Below are positions 14,087 through 27,055 of a stretch of DNA of 27,055 nt, piece by piece (within the stretch, counting starts at the first letter, position 1; each line of letters starts with the position of its first letter). The notes beneath the pieces were generated by a model that saw only the letters and a program-made list of their open reading frames with translations, did not search any database and was not told the DNA's origin. The stretch is from a virus, in the IMG/VR virus record IMGVR_UViG_3300044835_000092, positions 1 to 27,055 of that record. The stretch is one strand, 5' to 3'. Position numbers and translations under genes: made by a program.

Positions 14087-14605
14087 CTAACTCAGCACGT
14101 AGAGGTCGCCGCTGGTGACGTCCATGTACAGGTCACCAGCGGCTGAACCGGGTACGGAGGTGGGTGCGCCGGACCCGGTGAAGATCTTCGTGCCGCGCGC
14201 GCCGTCGGCACCGGCCGCGCCGGTCGAACCTGTCGGCCCGGTCGCTCCCGTCGCGCCGGTGGCGCCTGCGGTGCCCTGCGGTCCCGCCGAGCCGGTCGCA
14301 CCGGTCGCACCCGTATCGCCCTTCGGGCCCTGGAAGGCGACGCCGGATCCGTTGGGCGGGAACGCGGTGCCGTCCCAGATGTAGAGCTTGCCGTCCGCGT
14401 TGACCAGGTAGCCCTTGCCCGCGTCGCCCGATCCGAGTCCGCTGGGCAGCGCCGCGTAGGTCGCGGCGCTGCCCGCGATGGCGATGCCCTGTCCGGCCGC
14501 GCCGGTGGCGCCGGTGGCGCCAGCGGGGCCGGTCGCACCGGTGGGGCCCTGGGCACCGGCGGCGCCGGTGGGTCCCCGGAGGTTTCCTTGCACTGTCCAA
14601 GCCAC
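14087..14605 (-). CDS. Collagen-like protein with two Gly-X-Y segments, 172 aa
   Basis: A 172-residue protein starting MAWTVQGNLRGPTGAAGAQG from a GTG, with AAAGGA about nine bases upstream. It has two collagen-like Gly-X-Y runs (residues about 11-41 and 91-137, rich in GAT and GPT triplets). Between them is a short beta domain (GKGYLVNADGKLYIWDGTAF), and the C-terminus ends in a cap (AAGDLYMDVTSGDLYVLS). Such proteins form triple-helical fibres. It lies between the capsid and connector genes rather than with the tail fibre genes, so a head fibre, whisker or neck fibre is more likely than a tail fibre. The neighbour at 14619 ends in a similar G-D-x-Y-x-D motif. The function is inferred from sequence type and position. 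Confidence 0.88.
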   Translation of the reverse strand: MAWTVQGNLRGPTGAAGAQGPTGATGPAGATGATGAAGQGIAIAGSAATYAALPSGLGSGDAGKGYLVNADGKLYIWDGTAFPPNGSGVAFQGPKGDTGATGATGSAGPQGTAGATGATGATGPTGSTGAAGADGARGTKIFTGSGAPTSVPGSAAGDLYMDVTSGDLYVLS

Positions 14606-16863: not shown

Positions 16864-18195
16864 TCAGACGGACGGAGCCGCCGGGGCCGCAGTCGAGTTC
16901 GTCAAGTCGATCTTAACGAACGCCTCGGGCCTGGAGACCGTGAGGCCAATCCTCTGCTCGGCGAGGATCAGGATCGCGTTCCGGATGAACATGTCCGCGT
17001 GCTGCTCGGCGACGCGGATGTTCGACTGCTGCCGGTCGTAGATCTTCGCGCCGAGACCGAACGCGCCGACCAGCGCGGTGCCCTGGTTCATGGCCGGGGA
17101 GGCCACGACCGGCATCTGCCAAACGACCTTCTGGCCGCCGATCGCGACGTTCATCGAGATCAGGTACTGGCCGTTCGCGTCCTTGGTCGTCTCCATCCGC
17201 TCCCAGTCGAACGGGTGGACGACGACGCCGGTCGGCGAGTAGTACGCCAGCATGACGCGGGTCGCCGCACGGCGGATCGCGTCGATGTAGGTGTCCTTCG
17301 GCTGCACCGGGGAGGTGCCGCCGGTGCCCGGGTAGTTCTGCACGCCCGGGGTGCGCAGGATGCCCAGCAGGTTCTCCCCGCCGCCGTTGCCGTTGAGCAC
17401 CTGGTCGTCCTCGACGAGACGCAGGCCGTACAGCAGCTCCTGGTCGATGATCGAACGGAGCATCGGCTCGTCGTCGAGGGTGTTGCGGTGCGCCACTTCC
17501 CAGTGGGCGATGGTGCGGATCGGCGCCTGGGCGGGGATCAGCTTCAGCTTGGTCTGCGGCTTGAGGCCGAAGTTCGAGTCGTCCGACTCGCGCTCGGGGA
17601 CCGGCCGGGCGTTGTTGACGCCGTCGAGGTAGCCCACGACGCGCATGTACTCGATCAGGTTCGCCGACGTCGCCGCCACGGGGAACAGGTCCCGGACGCG
17701 GTCGGTGCGGTACGGCCGCTGAACGAGCGGCTCCTGCTCGACCGAGCCGAGACCGAAGCGGGTGAGCGTGCCACCGGCGGCGGTGTAGATGTCCTTGCGC
17801 TCCAGGGTGAGGTCCTGGTTGACGTGGAAGTCGTCGCTCATGATGCCGGTGGACGAACGGCCCTTGAACTCGGCCGATTCGGTGAAGCGCTCACCGATGC
17901 TCTTGCGCTCCATGCGGGCCAGCTGGCCGCCGCCCTCGGAGCCGACCGACTTGGACTCGGCGCCCGGGTCGTTCTGGTAGGCGAGCAGTTCTTCGTACTC
18001 GCCCAGCTCGGTGAGGCGGCCCCGGATGCTCTTGGCTTCCAGGAGGGTCTTGGTGAAGTCTTTGCGTGCGTCCTCGGAGACGGAGATCTTGCCGTCTTCC
18101 TCCGTGAAGCCCTTGGTCTGGATGTCGTTGAGAAGCTGCGACTTGGTTTCCAGTTCCTTGCGGAGGGTCTCGCGCTCGCGGGTAAGGGTAGACAC
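16864..18195 (-). CDS. Major capsid protein, HK97 fold with N-terminal delta domain
   Basis: A protein of 443 residues starting from GTG at 18195 with AAGGA about eight bases upstream. Residues 1-100 are charged and helical (TRERETLRKELETKSQLLND), which fits the delta domain that acts as an internal scaffold in HK97-type capsids and is removed by a protease. From about residue 120 the HK97 fold follows: DLFPVAATSANLIEYMRVVG (E-loop side), then APIRTIAHWEVAHRNTLDDE, GLRLVEDDQVLNGNGGGENL-type spine, VVVHPFDWERMETTKDANGQ and VVASPAMNQGTALVGAFGLG, ending in ADMFIRNAILILAEQRIGLT and a short Ala/Pro tail. This is the PF05065 pattern. The gene stands alone between two terminators and probably gives an abundant single-gene message. 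Confidence 0.95.
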   Translation of the reverse strand: MSTLTRERETLRKELETKSQLLNDIQTKGFTEEDGKISVSEDARKDFTKTLLEAKSIRGRLTELGEYEELLAYQNDPGAESKSVGSEGGGQLARMERKSIGERFTESAEFKGRSSTGIMSDDFHVNQDLTLERKDIYTAAGGTLTRFGLGSVEQEPLVQRPYRTDRVRDLFPVAATSANLIEYMRVVGYLDGVNNARPVPERESDDSNFGLKPQTKLKLIPAQAPIRTIAHWEVAHRNTLDDEPMLRSIIDQELLYGLRLVEDDQVLNGNGGGENLLGILRTPGVQNYPGTGGTSPVQPKDTYIDAIRRAATRVMLAYYSPTGVVVHPFDWERMETTKDANGQYLISMNVAIGGQKVVWQMPVVASPAMNQGTALVGAFGLGAKIYDRQQSNIRVAEQHADMFIRNAILILAEQRIGLTVSRPEAFVKIDLTNSTAAPAAPSV

Positions 18196-18356: not shown

Positions 18357-18533
18357 TTAGCAGCAGGGGCACGGTGCGGCGTCCCATGGATGGCCGCACC
18401 ACATCAGCGATCGGCCTTGTTCGTCGATCGCGCACTCGGGTGGCCGGTGAACCTCTCCGCACGGGCGACAGCAGATGTAGCCGAAGGCGAAGAAGTCGCA
18501 GTCGTCGTCACCGCACGGGCAGCGATCGGGCAT
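18357..18533 (-). CDS. Cysteine-rich small protein, 58 aa, probable zinc binder
   Basis: A 58-residue protein starting MPDRCPCGDDDCDFFAFGYI and ending WDAAPCPCC. It has 11 cysteines (C5, C7, C12, C21, C22, C25, C34, C46, C55, C57, C58) and two histidines in the right places (H29, H48) to hold two or three metal sites. I do not recognise a named family. It follows the 85-residue gene after five bases and is directly followed by a terminator. The same frame is open upstream to 18710, but that part is an arginine-rich shadow. The function is unknown; small Cys-rich proteins in phages are often host-interaction factors. Confidence 0.7.
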   Translation of the reverse strand: MPDRCPCGDDDCDFFAFGYICCRPCGEVHRPPECAIDEQGRSLMWCGHPWDAAPCPCC

Positions 18534-18538
18534 GGCCG

Positions 18539-18796
18539 CTACTGCTGCGCCTCGGCGAACGCTGTCGCGAGTGTGCCGTACTGGTCTTGGTCGATCCGGC
18601 CGTCGGCGAAGGCTTGCGCGACGAGCGCGAAACCGCCGGGAGGGTCGGGAGTCGGGTCGGGGTCGGCCTCGATCTCGTCGAGGGTGGTTTTGCGGTCGAA
18701 CTCGGGCCATTCGACGAAGGCGAATTCGGCGACGACGTCGTCGAGGGTGGTCTCTCCGTTTTCGAGTTGGTCGAGTAGTTCTGCCACGGTGGCCAT
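18539..18796 (-). CDS. Small acidic protein, 85 aa (unknown function)
   Basis: An 85-residue acidic protein starting MATVAELLDQLENGETTLDD. It appears helical with a central Asp/Pro-rich stretch (EADPDPTPDPPGG) and a C-terminal helix ending ATAFAEAQQ. AAGG lies about nine bases before the ATG, and the gene begins 12 bases after the previous stop. Its acidic, helical nature and position before the capsid gene could fit a small scaffold-like or head accessory protein, but I recognise no family, and the capsid protein seems to have its own scaffold domain. Confidence 0.78.
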   Translation of the reverse strand: MATVAELLDQLENGETTLDDVVAEFAFVEWPEFDRKTTLDEIEADPDPTPDPPGGFALVAQAFADGRIDQDQYGTLATAFAEAQQ

Positions 18797-18808
18797 GGGG
18801 CGGCCCTT

Positions 18809-19012
18809 CTAGTCGTCGGTGTCGGCGTTGTCGGTGTCGTCGAGCACGGGCATAGGGTTTCCGGCCTGGTAGCCGGTGCGCCAGAGTGTGGCCAGGACGC
18901 TGCCCTTCGGGGAGGGGTCTCCGGTGTAGGGGTTGGCGTCGGGGGGCTGTGCTGCGACGGCGGCGGCTTTGCCGTCGTCGAGCGCGGCGCGCATCTGCGT
19001 TGCGGGGCCCAT
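18809..19012 (-). CDS. Small hypothetical protein, 67 aa
   Basis: A 67-residue protein starting MGPATQMRAALDDGKAAAVA and ending VLDDTDNADTDD. The ATG at 19012 is strongly supported by AGGAG seven bases upstream; the frame is open to 19048 but that part is leader. It contains NPYTGDPSPKGSVLATLWRT, which might bind a partner as a short linear segment. No family recognised. It is the first gene downstream of the promoter-like element P3 and probably starts a three-gene message that ends at the terminator 18319-18356. Confidence 0.75.
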   Translation of the reverse strand: MGPATQMRAALDDGKAAAVAAQPPDANPYTGDPSPKGSVLATLWRTGYQAGNPMPVLDDTDNADTDD

Positions 19013-19049
19013 TCTCGTGCTCCTGTCACCTGGTGGTGGCCTGTACAAT

Positions 19050-19079
19050 TAGTTAACCATTGTCGAACCGGCTTGTCAA
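19050..19079 (-). promoter_or_regulatory. Promoter-like element P3 (TTGACA / TTAACT)
   Basis: On the minus strand TTGACA (19079-19074) follows the stop codon of the giant gene by one base, and after 17 bases comes TTAACT (19056-19051). It is copy 3 of the TTGACAAGCCG family and points into the three small genes at 19012-18357. About 40 bases separate the -10 box from the ATG, and a strong ribosome site lies between them. Confidence 0.75.
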
Positions 19080-19080
19080 C

Positions 19081-22000
19081 TTACCGCAGGAAGTCGTCGC
19101 CGCCGGTCCGCGCACCCGCCGCCGCCGCGCCAGCCGTATCACCGAGCAACCCCGCCTGGTACTGCTCGAACAGCACCCGGCCGTTCTGGTCGAACCACGC
19201 CTTCACCTCATCCGACCCGTACTTCATGACGCGGCTCTCCGGCCCCGAGAACAGACTGTGCGGGTCGATGCCCGCACCCCGGCCAGCCTGATTGAGCAGC
19301 TGCCCGTTCGTGTCCGCCTCGGCCGAGATGTACTGGCCGTAGATGTGGTCCCGGTAAGACAACCTCGCCAGCTCCGTGAACCCCGCGCCCTGGTAACCCT
19401 GCGACCGCAGACTCGTGATCGCCCGGTCCCGGTGCTGCTGGTCCACCCCGCGCCCGTACGCCTCCGCCGCCGCGCCCTCCTCGTCGTAACCCTGCGCCAG
19501 CAGCTCCTGCATGTGCTGCCACTGCTGCTCTTCGCGGGCATCAGCGTCGGACAGGGTCGGGGCCGCGCTCTCGCGCCGCTCCATCTCCCCGATGACCGAG
19601 TCCAGTGCGTCGAAATCGTTCGCCGTGGTGGCATCTGTCAGCTTTTTGTCCAGATCATCATCCGAGAGGGACGTCAGATCCGCCGGTGCTTTTGGGTCCA
19701 CGGCGGCCGCCTGGTTACCACCAACTTTCCAGACCCCGGCGCCCGCGATCTTCTGCGGCTCCCGACCGGCCACCGAGTTGTCGTAGACCACCCAGCTGTC
19801 GAACTCCGGCTGCAACGCGTCGAACGTGTCGCGATTCGCGCTCGACGACGTGTCCGACGAGTTCTGCCGGATGATCGACGGCGGCACGTACCGGCCGCCC
19901 AGCCCGTCCCCGGCCTTCGCCTTCTCCATCCCCCGCCGGTGGCGCCCCAGGGCACGCTCGACCGACGTCTCGACGGGAATGTCGACGAACACCGCGTCGA
20001 CGTCGGTGTAACCGGCCGCGCGCATCTCCGCGATCCGCTTCTCCACGCTGGCCTTGCGGCTCATCGTGATGTCCCACACGATGTTGGTCTTCTCCGCGTA
20101 GGCCCGCGCCGCCAGCATGTTCGCGATGTGACTGGACTCCTCGTGGACCAGTGCGCTCGACTCCATCAGCGACAAGCCGTCGACCGGGGGAACCATGCCC
20201 TTCGAGGCCATGACCTCCTTCACGTCGTCCGGGTTGACCGTGACGAACTGCGAGGCGTCGATGCCCGCGTAGCCCTTGAGGACCGTCGACTTGCCCGCCC
20301 CGCCGAGACCACCGGCGATGACCGCGCGGCCGTCCTTCGGGATGTTCGCGCCGTTCTTCTGCCACAGCTCGTCGACGATCTGGATGTGCATCGCCGCCCG
20401 GTCGGACGTCCAGCTCTGGCCGACGCCGCCGACCGTGAACAGCACGTCCGTGGACTGCCCCGCCGCGAACGCCTCGCCGAGCTTCTGCTCGATCTCAGCC
20501 GTGTGCGCCGCGTACTCGTCGTCGCTGATCGTCGATCCCGGCGCCGTCGGCTTCGCCCCGTCGAGCTTCCAGCTTCCGGCCGGGAGGTTCACCGTCGGCT
20601 GGGCGGAGCCGCCGTAGAGATCTTCGCGCCACGCCACCTGAATCGAGCCGTCGTCGTTCGCCCGCACCGTGCCGCCGTCGACGCCGTCCTCTACCGTCCG
20701 GCCCGCCAGCGTGGCCCGCAGGTTGCCGCTGTCGCCCTTCTCCAGCTTCACCGAGCCCCCGTCGCGCAGTTCCGACTTCAACTTCGAGGCGCGCACATTG
20801 CGGGTGCCCTGGTTCGCCTGCCCGCCGCCGGTCGCCGACGGGTTGTAGGCGACGCTGCCCACGGAGATGTCCGCCTTGGACAGGTCCGGGACGATCGTGC
20901 CGTCGTAGTTGTTGCGCCCCAGCAGGCCCATCGGACTCGGCTTGGACTCGTCGTAGGCGTCGGTGATGGCCTTCGCGCGGGCACGCAGGTCCGCCGACGG
21001 GGTGACCTTCTGACCGTCGGCGGACTCGATCGTGCGGCCGTCCAGCTCGTCGGCCAGCGCGTTCAAGCGCCGCGTCGCGTCCAGTGGCGCCACCTTCGCC
21101 TGCGGACGGGTCAAGGCGTACTCGGCCGAGATCCGCTTCGCCAGCGTCACATCCTCCGGCGTCATCGCCTTGCCCGGCAGGCCGTCGCCGAGCACGCGCT
21201 TGCCGGACAGGGCGTTGTACCCCTGCTCAGTGGGGCCGACCTTCAACGTCGAGGTGAGCACGTCAGGGTTGGGTGCCACGTCGGCGGCCTGCACACCGCT
21301 GGTCATCCGCTCGAACGAAGCGATGTCGTTCGAGGTGGGCCGCTTCACTGTCGCCAGGTGATCGACGTAGGCGGCCTTCGTGATCGTCGCCATCGGGTGG
21401 ACGCCGGTCTGCTGGCTGATCTCGGCTACGGACTTCTTCACATCGTCCGGCGTGCCACCCCACGGGATGGACTCGCCGTTGATGTTCGCCCGCTCCATGT
21501 AGTCGGCGATGCGCGCGGTCAACGCGGGCGACGGAGTGTCCACCATCCCCCCGTCGATACCCCAGCGCCCCATGGCGGCCGGAGTCCACGCCAGCTGTCC
21601 GCTGCGGGCCTGCTCGATGGCACCGTCCTTGCGGACCACCAGGTGACCGCCCGGAGAGAGCTTGGCGCCCCCGCCCGGCAGGCTGCGACTCGCCGGGTTG
21701 TCCAGGTAGGCAGCCTGCGCGCTCGCAGTCTTCGGGTCCCGGTCGGTCGGGTTCGCCGCGCGCAGTGCCTCGGCGTTCGCCGCGACCTGGTCGAAGTCCT
21801 GGAAGCCGCCCTCCGAGGGGGCGGTGAACGTCTCGAAAGGCGCCTTCTGCCAGGTGTTGCGGGCTGTCGTCTGCGACTGGGCAAGCTTCTGCTCGTCGCT
21901 GGACGGGGCGATCACGGCCGCCGGTGCGGCGCGCCGTGGCGCGGCCGCCGACCGGCGGGCCGGAGCGCGGCCGCCCGGCTCGGCGAGCGCGCGCCGGGCG

Positions 22001-25000
22001 TCGAGCTGGTCGCGGGTCTCCGGCAGATCCTCGGCCGCGCGGTCGAGAGTCTCGGTGGGGATCGAGGACACCTCGGAGAACGCGGCCGCCTTCATGCCGT
22101 CGGCCTCGGGAGCAGGCTGCCCCGGGTCGAGCACGACGAAACCGTCGTTGCCCAGGCCTGTGGACTGCAACACCCGGGGCGTGGCGCCGTCGGTGTCGCG
22201 GATGGTGAGCATCGGCGACACCCCGGCACCTTGGCTGATGTGCGCGGTGAGGGTCTGCCCGGTCGTCTCGTCGATGACCTGCGCGGCGGTACCGGTGGAC
22301 GACCCCTTGTCGTCGACGTCGATGCGCATCGGGGTGATGACGCGGTAGGTGCGCACCGTGTCGTTCTCCGGGAACGCGAACCGTTCCCCGGGCTGCACGG
22401 ACACCGCCCGGGTACCCGGGGACGCGGTCGGCGAGTACATGGACAGGTGCGCGTTCGCGAGGTCGTCGAGCAGACCGGCGCCGTGGTCGTCGGCAGTGGT
22501 CCCGGCGGGCAGCAGTGTCCCGGCTGCCTCCTTGCCGCGCAGCTCCTCGGCGCGGCGGCGCAGCGCGACGGCGGCCGCGTCCGGCGCACCGGCGTCGGCC
22601 AGTGTCCGGGCTCCGTTGGCGAGATCGAGGGTGCTGCGGTCGTCGCGGGCCGGGTTGCTGTCCCGGCCGATCAGGGAGGTGAGGTTGCGGTGCTGGTCGT
22701 TGATGTAGGCGCGGCGGCTCGGGTTGGTGCCGCTGCCGCCGAGCGGGGTCAGGTTCGCGTCGCGCACGACGGGGTCCGACCACTGCCCGGCCTGGATCTT
22801 GGCCGTGGTGAGTTCACGCATCGCGGCACCGACGTGGGCGCTGTAGCCCTTGGTGCCGTCGGGTCCGGTCCAGTCGTTGAGCGCGGTGTTGAGCCGGGCG
22901 CGGTCGGTGTCGGCGAAGTTGATCACGTTGCCCTTGGCGTCCGGCATGGACTCCAGCAGACCGGCCACGGTCAGCATGTCGCCCTTGCTCAGCGGCGGCA
23001 CATGCCCGTTGGTGACGATCTGGATGGACGCCCCGGTGCCGTTGTGCATGATGAACGGCTTCCCGCCCGTCTCGCGGGTGACCGAGAGGCCGCCGCCCGG
23101 GGAGAGCTTGGTGTACGCCCAGTCGATCCCGGTGTCTCGGTTCACGCCGTTCGCGTCGCGAGTGAGGGCGACGTTCGCGGCGAGGTGCGCGCGGACGGCG
23201 GCCGGGCTGTCGAACGCGCGCACACGCGGGGGCTGGGTGCGGGCCTCGACCAGCGGACTCGGCTGGCCGGTCACCGGGTTGACCGTCGGGTCGGCGATGC
23301 GGGACCGGATCGCGTCCACCCCGCTGCGCTCGGTGGTGAGCCGCTGGGTGGCGGTGTCGGTGGCCGGGAGCGGCGGGATCGTCGAGTCCGACGGGATGCG
23401 TCCGAGCTTTTGCTGGGCGTCGAGGGCGTGCGCGATGGCCGCGCGGGCGGTGTCCTCGTCGCCCATCACGCCTGATCCGGACGCGGTCACGGTGCCGTCG
23501 TCGGCGGTGGTCTGCCACTTGTACGACGTCGCCCCGCCGAACGAGTTGATGTCGGCGCTGTAGCCGGTGCCGGTGACCCCGGTCTGCGAGCCCACAGGCA
23601 GCCACGCGGCCGTCGTGTCGTGCCACACGCCCGGCGTGGGGCCGGTGGTGGTCGGCGTGCCCGATGCGGTGGTGTCGTCGACGCCGGGCAGCGGGTCGTA
23701 GGAGAGGTTGCGGCGGCGCATTTCGGCGTCGACCTGGCCGAGCAAGCTACGCAACTTTTCGCGGTCCAGGCGCTTCGCGGTGCGCCGGTTGCGGGCGTTC
23801 TCGTTGCGCTTGCTCTTGACGTCCAGGCGGATCGCGTCGGCGGCCGCGCGCAGTTGCTCGGGGGTGATGTCGGCGCCGGAGGAGATCAGGGTGCGCAGCG
23901 CGGTGGCGTGCTCGGAGTCGCTCTTGGACCGGTTGAGGCTCGCTTCAAGGCGGGCACGCGTGCGAGTGATCGCGTCGGCGTCGCCGGATTCCAGCGCGTC
24001 GGCGTGGTCCTCGGCGGCACCGGCGAGGCCGGGGCGGGTCTTGGGCGCAGGGGGCGCGGACGGGTCTGGCGTGCTGTCGTCGCCGCCGGTGGTGTCGCCG
24101 CTGTCGCTGGCGCCGCGCTGGCCCTGGGTGGGCGTGTTGCCGTTGTTCGCGGTGTCGCGCGCGGCGAGGTGGTCTTGGAGTTTGATCTCTCCGACGATGT
24201 CCGCGCGGGTCGAGCGGAGTCCGTCGTCGGTCTGGCCTGCGAGGTCGAGGTTTCCGGCGTCGCTGGCGTCGAGCAGTCCGGAGACGCGGTCTTGCCGGTC
24301 GGAGATGTCGGAGGCGACCTCGAACTGTCCGTCGTCTGCCTCGCTGACGCCGTAGGAGGCGTCGGAGGTGGCGTTCGCCTCGGCGACGTCGTCGGCGGTC
24401 AGGCGCGCGGTGTTCTCGGTGTTGAGCAGCGCGGCCGCGTCGTCGGCCGCTGTCGGTGCCTCGCCGGTGACCGCGTCCTGCTTGCGCTGGTTGCGGTCGG
24501 TGATGTCCTGCAAGGTCATCGCGGGCACGCGGGCTGCCACCAGGTCGGCGGCGTCCTGCTCGGGGGTGGGGCCGGTGCCGTCGTAGGCGGCCGGGTAGGA
24601 CGCGGCGAGCGCGGCGGCGATGGGCTGCGGCTGGCCGGTGTAGGCGGCGGTGATGACGCTGCGGGAGTCCAGCGCGGGCGGTGCGGCGGCGGTCGCCGAA
24701 TCAACGCCTGGCGCCCCCGGCGTTGATTCCGGCGCCGACTCTGCAAGTGGACTTGCATTGTCGGACGGTCCTGCCAAGTCGGGACCGGTTCCGCTTGGCG
24801 CGTCGATCGCGCCGCCCTGGGCGCGCCGGTTCTGCTCGGTGGCGATCTGGTCGGCGTAGAGCTTGGCCTCGGTGTAGGCGTTCGAGGTGCGCGGCTGGCC
24901 GGAGACGGCGGCGAAGTCGGACTTCGCCTTGTCGGCTTCGGCGGCGAGCTGGGCGTCACTCATGCTCTTGATGCCGGACAGGTCGCCGGTCGCCACTGCC

Positions 25001-27055
25001 GGTGCGGCGGCGTCGGGTGCGGCCTGGCCGGGCGCGGGCGGCGCACCGGTGGCGCCCACTCCGCCTTGCTCGGGAGGCTGCATTGCGTCGGCCGTGGCGG
25101 CTTGGACGCGGGCGTCTTGGGCCTGCTTGAGCGGGTCTGATTCGGGCGCGTTCTGGTCACCTACGGGGGTGTTCGGCGCGGCGGCGTCGGGTGCGGTTGA
25201 AGCGTCGGGTGCGGCCGGTGTCAGTGTCGGTTCGGGGCGTGATCCGTCGGCGCGGCCCGCGATTTCGTCCTTCACCTGCTGGTGCATGGGGGTGACAGCA
25301 TCGGGGTGGCCGAGCAGATCGGCGCGGCGAGCCAGTTCGGTATCCAGCGCGTTCAGGTCGTCGGTACTCGTCGTAGGCAGCTGGTCGGTCTTCCCTGCGG
25401 CGAGCGCGTTGGCGAGTTTCTGGATCTTCGCGTTCTGCTCGTCCGGAGCGGCAGGCGCGTTGGCGTCCGGGGCGCCGCCGTCCGGGACGTTGGCGTCCGG
25501 CACACCGGGTGCGTCCGGCGTGCTGCCGTCGTCCACTCCGTTGTCCGCCGCGTCCATGTCGTAGACGCGGGCCGGGATGTTGTCGCGGCCGGAGGCCATG
25601 GCGCCGACGGCACGGTGGTGGCCGTCGAACAACCAGTTTTTCCCCTGGTGGCGGACAACGTTGACCGGTTCGTCGCTGGTGTTCGCCTCCACTTTTTTGC
25701 TGCCGAGGGTGTTCGCGTTGTCCTGCGTGCGGTTGAGCGATGAGATCGGCAGGTTCTCGACCTTTTTGTCGCCGAACTTCAGGCTCTGGCCGGGCCGGTG
25801 CCACGGTGCCTCGGTGACGTCGTTGACGCCTTGCGGCATCGCCTTCTCGACGTCGAGGCTGTCGCCTACCTGCGGCTTGCCCGGTGCCGGTGCGGCCGGA
25901 GTGTTCGCGTCGTCGGGGGTGCTGGCGTCCGGCGCGACCGGCGCGTTGTCGGCGGCCTTCGGGGTGCCGTCCTCGTTGCGGCCGAACACCCCGCCACCGA
26001 CGCGCGACAGGGCCGTCGGGTGGTCTTCGCCCGCTACGCGGCCGCGCGCGTAGTCGTCCTGCTTGGCCGGGCTCAGTGCGCCGTATTCGGCCTTTTCGGC
26101 GGCCGGGAGCTTCGCGGCCGCCCGGTCCGGGTTGGCCTTCCACATGGCCTTGGTGGTCTTGTCGGGCAGGGGCGCGGTGCCGTCGTTCTTCGTGCTGGTC
26201 GTCGGCAGGATGTGCATCTTGCCGGTGAAGCCGCGCTTGCGGTAGTCGGCGATGTTGCGCTGCGCGTTCGCTGCGCTGCCGTTGAAAGAGAGCTGGCCGA
26301 AGTTGCCCTGGTCGTCCTCGTGCACGACAGCGTGGGTGTAGTCGCGCTTGCTGCCCCGGTGGAACTGCTGGCCGTTGGGGGCGGTCACGGTGTGCAGGTT
26401 CTCGCCCTTTTTGACCTTGGGCGGGGGCTGCTGGGTGAACGGCGGGTACTTCTTCGCCGCACCGGCGTCCGGAGCACCGGCGTCCGGCGCGTCGTCGGGT
26501 TGCGTGTCCGTGCTCGGCGCGGCGGCGTCCGGCTTCGCGGTGTCGTCGGCGTTGGTCGAGTCGGATTCGCTGGCGTTGGCCGAGCTGTCGCCGCCGTCGG
26601 TTCCGGTGGAGTCGCCGCCTTTGCCGTCGGCCTTGTTCTGTTCGGCGACGGCCTTTTTGTACCGGTCGGCGTACTCGGCGCTGATCTGGTCGATCTTGTC
26701 GAGCCGGTCGTCGTCGTCGGTTCCGGGCGGCCAGGTGGCGTTGCGCAGGTCCGACTCGAACTCGTCGGGCGTGATGCCCTCGGCGAGGGTGCGCGCGAAG
26801 GCCTTCTCTTTGTTGTTGGCGTGCTCGGGGCCCTCGTCGCGGTCCTCGTTGCGCACGATGTCGGCGATGTGGTGCTCGGGGTTCGCCGTCGGCTTGGTGG
26901 CACGCAACCGAGCGTCGCTCTTGGGCTCAGGGAATAGACCTGCCGCGTCGTCGGACGCGGCCGCCGCGTCGGGCTTGATCCGCTTGGGTGCGGCGCCACC
27001 GTCCGGCCCGGCGCTGGCGTCGGTGCCGATGTGCGGCGAGGGCACGCGGCCCTCT
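19081..27055 (-). CDS. Giant polyvalent protein with ParB-like and zeta-toxin-like kinase domains, partial
   Basis: An open frame of more than 2,650 codons that runs off the right edge; a GTG at 27045 is the first possible start but the frame stays open before it, so the true start may be outside. Numbering from that GTG: residues 215-285 are a small beta module (VTAPNGQQFHRGS); 412-500 look ParB-like, with VENLPISSLNRTQ and D474-G-H-H-R478; 1170-1205 a short beta unit; 1313 and 1794 two related KLSPGG modules; about 2198-2425 a zeta-toxin-type kinase with Walker A GGLGGAGKST (K2252), NPDD (D2273/2274) and RALGRHRRG. The helical end contains YRDHIYGQYISAEA. Linkers rich in APDA separate the parts. 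Its place before the capsid gene fits a MuF-type or injected virion protein, as in the polyvalent proteins described by Iyer and Aravind's group. Function is inferred. Confidence 0.88.
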   Translation of the reverse strand, partial: EGRVPSPHIGTDASAGPDGGAAPKRIKPDAAAASDDAAGLFPEPKSDARLRATKPTANPEHHIADIVRNEDRDEGPEHANNKEKAFARTLAEGITPDEFESDLRNATWPPGTDDDDRLDKIDQISAEYADRYKKAVAEQNKADGKGGDSTGTDGGDSSANASESDSTNADDTAKPDAAAPSTDTQPDDAPDAGAPDAGAAKKYPPFTQQPPPKVKKGENLHTVTAPNGQQFHRGSKRDYTHAVVHEDDQGNFGQLSFNGSAANAQRNIADYRKRGFTGKMHILPTTSTKNDGTAPLPDKTTKAMWKANPDRAAAKLPAAEKAEYGALSPAKQDDYARGRVAGEDHPTALSRVGGGVFGRNEDGTPKAADNAPVAPDASTPDDANTPAAPAPGKPQVGDSLDVEKAMPQGVNDVTEAPWHRPGQSLKFGDKKVENLPISSLNRTQDNANTLGSKKVEANTSDEPVNVVRHQGKNWLFDGHHRAVGAMASGRDNIPARVYDMDAADNGVDDGSTPDAPGVPDANVPDGGAPDANAPAAPDEQNAKIQKLANALAAGKTDQLPTTSTDDLNALDTELARRADLLGHPDAVTPMHQQVKDEIAGRADGSRPEPTLTPAAPDASTAPDAAAPNTPVGDQNAPESDPLKQAQDARVQAATADAMQPPEQGGVGATGAPPAPGQAAPDAAAPAVATGDLSGIKSMSDAQLAAEADKAKSDFAAVSGQPRTSNAYTEAKLYADQIATEQNRRAQGGAIDAPSGTGPDLAGPSDNASPLAESAPESTPGAPGVDSATAAAPPALDSRSVITAAYTGQPQPIAAALAASYPAAYDGTGPTPEQDAADLVAARVPAMTLQDITDRNQRKQDAVTGEAPTAADDAAALLNTENTARLTADDVAEANATSDASYGVSEADDGQFEVASDISDRQDRVSGLLDASDAGNLDLAGQTDDGLRSTRADIVGEIKLQDHLAARDTANNGNTPTQGQRGASDSGDTTGGDDSTPDPSAPPAPKTRPGLAGAAEDHADALESGDADAITRTRARLEASLNRSKSDSEHATALRTLISSGADITPEQLRAAADAIRLDVKSKRNENARNRRTAKRLDREKLRSLLGQVDAEMRRRNLSYDPLPGVDDTTASGTPTTTGPTPGVWHDTTAAWLPVGSQTGVTGTGYSADINSFGGATSYKWQTTADDGTVTASGSGVMGDEDTARAAIAHALDAQQKLGRIPSDSTIPPLPATDTATQRLTTERSGVDAIRSRIADPTVNPVTGQPSPLVEARTQPPRVRAFDSPAAVRAHLAANVALTRDANGVNRDTGIDWAYTKLSPGGGLSVTRETGGKPFIMHNGTGASIQIVTNGHVPPLSKGDMLTVAGLLESMPDAKGNVINFADTDRARLNTALNDWTGPDGTKGYSAHVGAAMRELTTAKIQAGQWSDPVVRDANLTPLGGSGTNPSRRAYINDQHRNLTSLIGRDSNPARDDRSTLDLANGARTLADAGAPDAAAVALRRRAEELRGKEAAGTLLPAGTTADDHGAGLLDDLANAHLSMYSPTASPGTRAVSVQPGERFAFPENDTVRTYRVITPMRIDVDDKGSSTGTAAQVIDETTGQTLTAHISQGAGVSPMLTIRDTDGATPRVLQSTGLGNDGFVVLDPGQPAPEADGMKAAAFSEVSSIPTETLDRAAEDLPETRDQLDARRALAEPGGRAPARRSAAAPRRAAPAAVIAPSSDEQKLAQSQTTARNTWQKAPFETFTAPSEGGFQDFDQVAANAEALRAANPTDRDPKTASAQAAYLDNPASRSLPGGGAKLSPGGHLVVRKDGAIEQARSGQLAWTPAAMGRWGIDGGMVDTPSPALTARIADYMERANINGESIPWGGTPDDVKKSVAEISQQTGVHPMATITKAAYVDHLATVKRPTSNDIASFERMTSGVQAADVAPNPDVLTSTLKVGPTEQGYNALSGKRVLGDGLPGKAMTPEDVTLAKRISAEYALTRPQAKVAPLDATRRLNALADELDGRTIESADGQKVTPSADLRARAKAITDAYDESKPSPMGLLGRNNYDGTIVPDLSKADISVGSVAYNPSATGGGQANQGTRNVRASKLKSELRDGGSVKLEKGDSGNLRATLAGRTVEDGVDGGTVRANDDGSIQVAWREDLYGGSAQPTVNLPAGSWKLDGAKPTAPGSTISDDEYAAHTAEIEQKLGEAFAAGQSTDVLFTVGGVGQSWTSDRAAMHIQIVDELWQKNGANIPKDGRAVIAGGLGGAGKSTVLKGYAGIDASQFVTVNPDDVKEVMASKGMVPPVDGLSLMESSALVHEESSHIANMLAARAYAEKTNIVWDITMSRKASVEKRIAEMRAAGYTDVDAVFVDIPVETSVERALGRHRRGMEKAKAGDGLGGRYVPPSIIRQNSSDTSSSANRDTFDALQPEFDSWVVYDNSVAGREPQKIAGAGVWKVGGNQAAAVDPKAPADLTSLSDDDLDKKLTDATTANDFDALDSVIGEMERRESAAPTLSDADAREEQQWQHMQELLAQGYDEEGAAAEAYGRGVDQQHRDRAITSLRSQGYQGAGFTELARLSYRDHIYGQYISAEADTNGQLLNQAGRGAGIDPHSLFSGPESRVMKYGSDEVKAWFDQNGRVLFEQYQAGLLGDTAGAAAAGARTGGDDFLR
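19770..20455 (-). other. Zeta-toxin-like kinase module inside the giant protein
   Basis: Residues about 2198-2425. Walker A is GGLGGAGKST; NPDD follows 20 residues later, as expected for the substrate-side acidic pair; ESSALVHEESSHIANMLAA and NIVWDITMS match the next helix and strand of zeta/PezT kinases; RALGRHRRG gives the arginine-rich lid. Zeta enzymes phosphorylate UDP-N-acetylglucosamine or related sugars and so block cell-wall synthesis. No epsilon-like antitoxin gene is visible next to it. Confidence 0.82.
25640..25810 (-). other. ParB-like module inside the giant protein
   Basis: Residues about 412-470 of the giant protein, continued by D474-G-H-H-R-A at 25626-25609. The order of a strand with LPISSL, a polar helix and (F)DGHHRAVGAM is that of the ParB/sulfiredoxin-like fold. 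Such modules in phage polyvalent proteins may act as nucleases or nucleotide-binding units. Confidence 0.7.

Follow-up and report, generated by a model that had tools for sequence, protein, structure and literature searches.

A giant polyvalent protein with a zeta-type kinase and a linked small gene beside the capsid gene of a soil phage

Genes at the locus and the giant reading frame

The window analyzed here is the entire IMG/VR record IMGVR_UViG_3300044835_000092 of a soil phage (27,055 bases). Its right-hand part is taken up by a minus-strand frame that is stop-free over 2,657 codons, is open at the right contig edge and encodes a giant protein with a ParB-like module and a zeta-type kinase. 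Between this frame and the major capsid gene lie small genes, one of which is linked to the kinase (Table 1). The giant protein, this candidate partner gene and their probable function are the subject of this study.

An initial annotation, made from the sequence of the window, had described a single unbroken frame of more than 2,650 residues with long APDA-type linkers. Both features were borne out. The frame is real, and linkers rich in Ala, Pro and Asp are present. Given the base composition of the region, the chance of a stop-free frame of this size is about 5e-20. Third-position GC is 0.83–0.95 in each 400-codon slice, and the 494 codons common to the giant and its relative from locus L007 are under purifying constraint (pN 0.25 versus pS 0.46). 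High-GC DNA does yield long shadow frames, and the plus-strand frame at 19060–23475 (1,471 residues) was set aside as a shadow of the giant frame. A chance open frame or an assembly fusion is nevertheless considered refuted, with a negligible residual probability, on account of the above values and of frames of like architecture that were assembled independently from several samples. Since the record ends at position 27,055, the GTG at 27045 was not taken as a start, and the giant is truncated by the contig end. Window residue 27 aligns to residue 266 of the giant from locus L009; thus, about 240 residues are missing, which are predicted to contain a prohead protease (S78) domain.

The ParB-like module proposed in the initial annotation was supported by profile and predicted fold. 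A two-sequence profile of residues 415–520 matched, within the PDB, no chains other than those of the ParB superfamily, with E-values of 0.36–0.98, and the homologue of the module in L034 gave a ParBc_2 match below the cut-off. For the predicted fold (predicted local distance difference test score, pLDDT, of 67), 50 of the 50 PDB matches listed belong to the ParB/sulfiredoxin superfamily (best 8.5e-5), among them ParB, sulfiredoxin, Noc, KorB and SbnI. The active-site motif GxxR of this superfamily is represented by GHHR, which is invariant in three proteins. A tblastn search of giant residues 1–2118 against the phage collection, a single-protein sequence search of the PDB and PADLOC gave no match.

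The genes downstream of the giant encode capsid, neck, tail sheath, tape measure, P2 gpU/LysM, NlpC/P60 and baseplate proteins. With sheath, tape measure and baseplate genes, the virus is thus a contractile-tailed phage, and the position of the giant before the capsid gene of the structural region, as described initially, was confirmed. Its host is likely an actinobacterium, since, among named genomes, actinobacteria hold the closest relatives of the kinase. A 173-residue frame at 18508–19029, a candidate for the gene ahead of that of the capsid, was rejected for its lack of relatives and because two conserved small genes overlap with it. Further downstream, positions 14087–14605 of the window encode a short protein akin to collagen-like tail fibre and minor tail families.

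Table 1. Features of the giant protein and of the genes between it and the capsid gene (residue numbers are those of the window giant unless stated otherwise).
Feature	Position	Strand	Remarks
Giant protein, C-terminal 2,657 residues	19081..27054	-	Stop-free frame; relatives with real starts have N-terminal S78
Module matching P0002 residues 266–378	26638..26976	-	Residues 27–139; 36%, E 5e-15; after S78 in relatives
ParB/sulfiredoxin-fold module	25540..25812	-	Residues ~415–505; motif DGHHR
Small conserved module	25228..25425	-	Residues 544–609; in L015 a separate 167-residue gene
Conserved module	23680..24390	-	Residues 889–1125; common to L009 and L020 giants
Conserved module	22360..23106	-	Residues 1317–1565; common to L009 giant (25%, E 3e-8)
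Zeta-type kinase domain	19735..20559	-	Residues 2166–2440
C-terminal domain	19084..19737	-	Residues 2440–2657; phrog_1752 C-terminus
RMF-like gene, 67 residues	18809..19012	-	PF04957, E 1.2e-7; putative partner of C-terminal domain
Zeta partner, 85 residues, candidate antitoxin/immunity	18539..18796	-	Conserved; linked to zeta kinases
Cys-rich conserved protein, 58 residues	18357..18533	-	67% over 45 residues in L007
Major capsid protein, next gene	16864..18195	-	phrog_10, E 7.9e-53

The kinase, its substrate and its linked partner gene

Residues 2243–2407 of the giant match the Pfam family Zeta_toxin (PF06414; E 2.5e-16). The Walker A motif (GGLGGAGKST, 2248–2257), NPDD with the catalytic base Asp2276, HxESS (2304–2308) and the lid arginines Arg2371 and Arg2388 are present, and Walker A, NPDD and the arginine lid are invariant or nearly so across 14 relatives. 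By alignment, Lys2255, Asp2276, Arg2371 and Arg2388 correspond to Lys46, Asp67, Arg158 and Arg171 of the Streptococcus pyogenes zeta toxin. Thus, the zeta-type kinase recognized initially from Walker A, NPDD and lid was confirmed, and structure prediction returned both the kinase fold (in a model of its relative from L030) and the ParB fold.

The initial annotation had also assigned UDP-sugars as the target of the kinase, which was not supported. In zeta toxin, UDP-N-acetylglucosamine (UDP-GlcNAc) is contacted by Glu100 (ribose) and Thr128 (uracil) (PMC3062530). Asn and Arg occupy these positions in the window kinase, the alignment of this stretch being of moderate confidence. In profile searches, zeta (1gvn) was the best match of the kinase (1e-14), followed by PezT (1e-9) and AvrRxo1 (2e-6). 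The HxESS motif is common to the window kinase and AvrRxo1 and is absent from zeta and PezT in that profile output. In the model of the L030 kinase (pLDDT mostly >90), AvrRxo1 ranked first (3.5e-8), ahead of zeta (1.4e-7) and PezT (1.2e-6). AvrRxo1 phosphorylates nicotinamide adenine dinucleotide (NAD) and has not kept the UDP-GlcNAc residues (PMC5087710). Weakening of the wall during entry by a kinase of UDP-GlcNAc, as proposed in the initial annotation and by Iyer et al. (PMC5512222), would agree with the zeta fold, with the retention of the Lys of the ATP site, the base Asp and the two lid Arg, and with the top sequence score of 1gvn. It is judged less likely, and on the whole improbable, because both substrate contacts are replaced and HxESS is shared with an enzyme that does not use UDP-GlcNAc. 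We therefore lean towards NAD or a related nucleotide as the probable substrate. An annotation as 'zeta toxin' in phages need not imply a UDP-GlcNAc kinase. Among the fold matches of the kinase model was BFVD entry A0A6J5LTH6, a viral protein of 1,134 residues that is named anti-CBASS Acb1 and may be an Acb1-zeta fusion.

Two small genes lie directly downstream of the giant, the RMF-like gene and the 85-residue gene. The latter is conserved between giant and capsid gene, with identities of 72% in L007 and 33% in L020. A three-sequence profile of its product gave clear matches solely beside zeta kinases. After iteration, the partner was found downstream of or fused to the kinase in 33 of 35 non-redundant kinases of this particular zeta subfamily, both in phage heads and on actinobacterial chromosomes; the two kinases where it was not found are those of L031 and L183. 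The subfamily was delimited at >190 bits, and the L032/L033 pair, at 189 bits, is without partner. Mostly, the partner gene follows the kinase within 140 nucleotides or less and often overlaps it, and in L030 and L179 the two are fused. Of about 101 zeta-free loci, none contained it, nor did any locus with a more distant zeta. Since the loci had mostly been picked by zeta, the search was reversed, using the partner alone as query. Across 299 genomes from a single order, each of the nine strong matches (E <1e-28) was located behind or fused to a subfamily kinase. Seven marginal matches (E ~1e-4) were partial, lay inside long frames without zeta and were taken as chance. Two whole genomes, 9.5 and 7.2 Mb in size, each contained exactly one partner match, beside zeta. 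In addition, the pairwise divergence of kinase and partner was correlated (r of 0.65; reached in 0 of 5,000 shuffles).

The pair also occurs in bacterial settings. In Actinomadura (L171), the N-terminal 350 residues of the kinase protein are 64% like those of the adjacent protein and the C-termini differ, as in a polymorphic-toxin array; in L176, kinase and partner stand without recognized phage genes around them. Based on kinase linkage, reverse search, correlated divergence, toxin-array homologues and the phage-free pair, the 85-residue protein looks like an antitoxin or immunity protein of the kinase. The view of the initial annotation that no antitoxin is encoded nearby is contradicted by this gene, given its presence with 33 of 35 kinases and its 9 of 9 reverse matches. 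Actinobacterial arrays of this polymorphic-toxin-like type were seen at L171 8642–15060 and L170 2541–10819, with common N-termini, differing C-termini and small genes behind them. At L179 8598–9509, a degenerate P-loop kinase copy is fused to a partner domain beside an intact kinase/partner pair. An alignment that combined kinase with partner sequences was discarded since MAFFT had placed the partner rows on the kinase.

Behind the kinase, the giant ends in a further domain (residues 2440–2657) that had been overlooked in the initial annotation. Its match is the C-terminus of phrog_1752 (E 1e-28), which forms the very C-terminal end of MuF-like/minor capsid proteins, among others in cluster K mycobacteriophages. 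The phrog_1752 label 'head maturation protease' was not accepted for this domain, as it is a C-terminal add-on without a Pfam match. An RMF-like gene follows the domain in 68 of 77 loci (including L005, L117 and L150). The giant of L007 stops just past zeta, lacks the C-terminal domain and is followed by the zeta partner, while the order in the window is zeta, C-terminal domain, RMF-like gene and zeta partner. The C-terminal domain and the RMF-like gene thus look like a second effector/partner pair, and the simplest history would be its insertion between zeta and its partner. Such a nested order supports the exchange of domains together with their partner genes.

Full-length relatives and the S78 carrier

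A direct scan of IMG/VR with the zeta-tail region gave no match, and relatives were reached via the capsid gene and by profile scans. The capsid protein is 79% identical in L007, 67% in L009 and 60% in L020/L021. The giant of L009 (304–9177; 2,957 residues) has a real start and carries S78 at its N-terminus (PF04586, E 3e-6; TIGR01543, E 1e-7). It has modules in common with the window giant and ends in a HEYGH zincin-like motif in place of zeta. This zincin-like domain also occurs at L031, in a portal fusion, and at L132, in a protein of 3,462 residues. In L020/L021, found by profile scan, the gene order is portal, MuF, an RNA-ligase-like gene, a giant of 2,055 residues and the capsid gene. 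This giant consists of an N-terminal S78 domain (49% identical to that of L009), the ParB module and then zeta, and the identical frame was recovered from two samples. A Pfam search revealed no MuF domain in the window giant, and L009 and L020 encode MuF separately. The initial annotation had advised looking for a MuF or portal domain in the sequence beyond the right edge, but in the relatives S78 is N-terminal, with portal and MuF as separate genes upstream.

Since full-length relatives join S78, ParB and zeta beside the capsid gene, the giant is, by its domain architecture, a polyvalent protein that probably has the protease of capsid maturation as its base. It combines several unrelated catalytic domains (zeta and ParB/sulfiredoxin in the window; S78 in relatives) and is encoded among virion structural genes. 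The comparison with polyvalent proteins suggested initially thus holds for domain content and gene context alike. Other S78 proteins before capsid genes carry a different enzyme directly behind the protease, namely Nudix in L164 (16662–18596; E 6.7e-16) and a 2H phosphoesterase in L166 (15930–18080; E 3.3e-13). Zeta, in turn, is found on portal proteins in L016 (395–4189) and in L177 (7022–11116; Micromonospora costi, Mu-type portal), with the partner gene downstream, and beside the capsid gene in L022. The portal-zeta protein of Micromonospora costi likely belongs to a prophage.

Alternatively, the giant may be mainly an internal scaffold that is degraded at maturation, with the enzyme domains as passengers. 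S78 precedes the capsid gene, no separate long scaffold gene was seen between giant and capsid gene, and simpler S78 proteins of 640–720 residues exist in other phages. However, the kinase residues are under strong constraint, domains are exchanged along with their own partner genes, and zeta also occurs on portal proteins. A pure scaffold role is therefore less likely, and we consider it quite improbable.

Three further observations concern these head regions. At L031 11353–15039, a prohead protease gene contains two apparent inteins, one of them directly before the catalytic serine (...VEW/C...HN/SVGYNV, with slashes at the junctions). The RNA-ligase-like gene between MuF and giant was seen at L011 13043–14611 and L021 3162–4853, and its domain occurs elsewhere in the 'head maturation protease' family phrog_18402. 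Head gene clusters also encode proteins of 3,462 (L132 2–10387) and 4,502 residues (L164 1916–15421) that had no Pfam match at E 0.01.

Likeness to known systems and proposed function

Polyvalent proteins with zeta-like kinases fused to MuF, and with ParB-like domains, have been described (Iyer et al. 2017, PMC5512222). The parts of that study drawn on here agree with the giant in the very large polypeptide, the unrelated enzyme domains and the late/virion gene context. In the same parts, assemblin-like peptidases are stated to be always C-terminal and no cognate small zeta partner is described, whereas the prohead protease of the window's relatives is N-terminal with the effectors behind it. 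For MuF polymorphic toxins of temperate phages, a small open reading frame directly downstream was proposed as immunity gene (Jamet et al. 2017, PMC5576092). The head-gene carrier, the C-terminal enzymatic domain and the small downstream frame are shared features. In contrast, the carrier of the window's relatives is a prohead protease with MuF as a separate gene (L009 and L020), the window has two nested cassettes, and zeta is unmentioned in PMC5576092.

In AvrRxo1/AvrRxo2, a bicistron encodes the kinase and, downstream of it, an inhibitor about 98 residues long (PMC5087710). This system resembles the present pair in fold (best match of the L030 model), HxESS, a downstream partner and the loss of UDP-GlcNAc-binding residues, but the window kinase lies in a phage head context and its partner showed no AvrRxo2 similarity in a PDB profile search. 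Epsilon/zeta and PezAT share the kinase fold, ATP-site and catalytic residues; they differ in that the window kinase has replaced substrate contacts and a downstream partner unrelated in sequence to epsilon or PezA. The minor head protein of cyanophage PSS2 and gp57 of Mycobacterium phage Phrappuccino are likewise large head-region proteins with zeta, although the PSS2 kinase sits on MuF. S78 was not found in either protein. Behind gp57, gp58 resembles the partner, weakly with the first profile (E 0.64) and picked up on iteration. Polyvalent proteins, MuF toxins, zeta kinases and AvrRxo1/2 are thus known. New are the use of an N-terminal prohead protease as carrier of exchangeable effectors, the unnamed partner family of the zeta branch and the nested second cassette.

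Taken together, we propose, with a probability of roughly 0.6, that the window giant of this contractile-tailed, actinobacterial phage is part of a polyvalent protein that carries a prohead protease, delivers a toxin-type kinase from the head and is accompanied by a silencing partner. The S78 domain would enter the prohead together with the long extension. The extension would be cleaved inside the prohead, and the freed enzymes would be packaged and later ejected along with the genome. Once inside the new cell, the kinase may phosphorylate a small nucleotide-type metabolite and thereby stall growth or aid takeover, while in the producing cell the 85-residue partner would bind and silence it. 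The C-terminal domain and the RMF-like gene would form a second effector/partner cassette placed between kinase and partner. We infer packaging, cleavage, ejection, toxicity and neutralization alike.

Several points weigh against this proposal. The S78 domain of the window giant lies beyond the contig end and is predicted from relatives with 60–80% identical capsid genes. Head delivery and kinase toxicity are read from folds, residues, synteny and linkage, and the antitoxin role of the partner from linkage. Apart from a weak VbhA match below threshold, the partner resembles no known antitoxin; its profile matched no antitoxin in the PDB and none in Pfam above the cut-off. In the model of the L030 kinase-partner fusion, docking of the partner was of low confidence and is not interpretable, since the run was made without partner alignment rows. 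The fold scores of AvrRxo1 and zeta are close, so the substrate preference is only a lean.

Finally, the 2H or Nudix domains on polyvalent relatives would fit counter-defence too. Since these enzymes act on nucleotides, the strongest rival is an injected kinase that alters nucleotide signals or NAD of host immunity, with the partner as chaperone or loading factor. The occurrence of both domains on S78 carriers, the viral protein named Acb1 among the fold matches and the resemblance to an NAD kinase speak for it. The pair is, however, also found in bacterial polymorphic-toxin arrays and near stand-alone on a chromosome, where toxin and immunity are the simpler explanation, and we regard counter-defence as unlikely but worth serious attention.

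For the phage kinases of this branch, a head-delivered toxin with an antidote gene, the preferred explanation, has wider implications. Prohead proteases may, as a tentative generalization on which we would not yet rely, be unrecognized carriers of polymorphic effectors that free exchangeable toxins (zeta, zincin, 2H, Nudix, ParB), at least some of which would travel together with an antidote gene; the zeta branch would then be a nucleotide or NAD kinase with a new antitoxin family common to actinobacterial arrays. If true, the protease that matures the capsid would also load and release weapons, which would explain how the head can accommodate a protein with some 2,900 residues. The partner family would provide a genetic handle to predict which phage kinases are toxins, testable as pairs, including Phrappuccino gp57/gp58.
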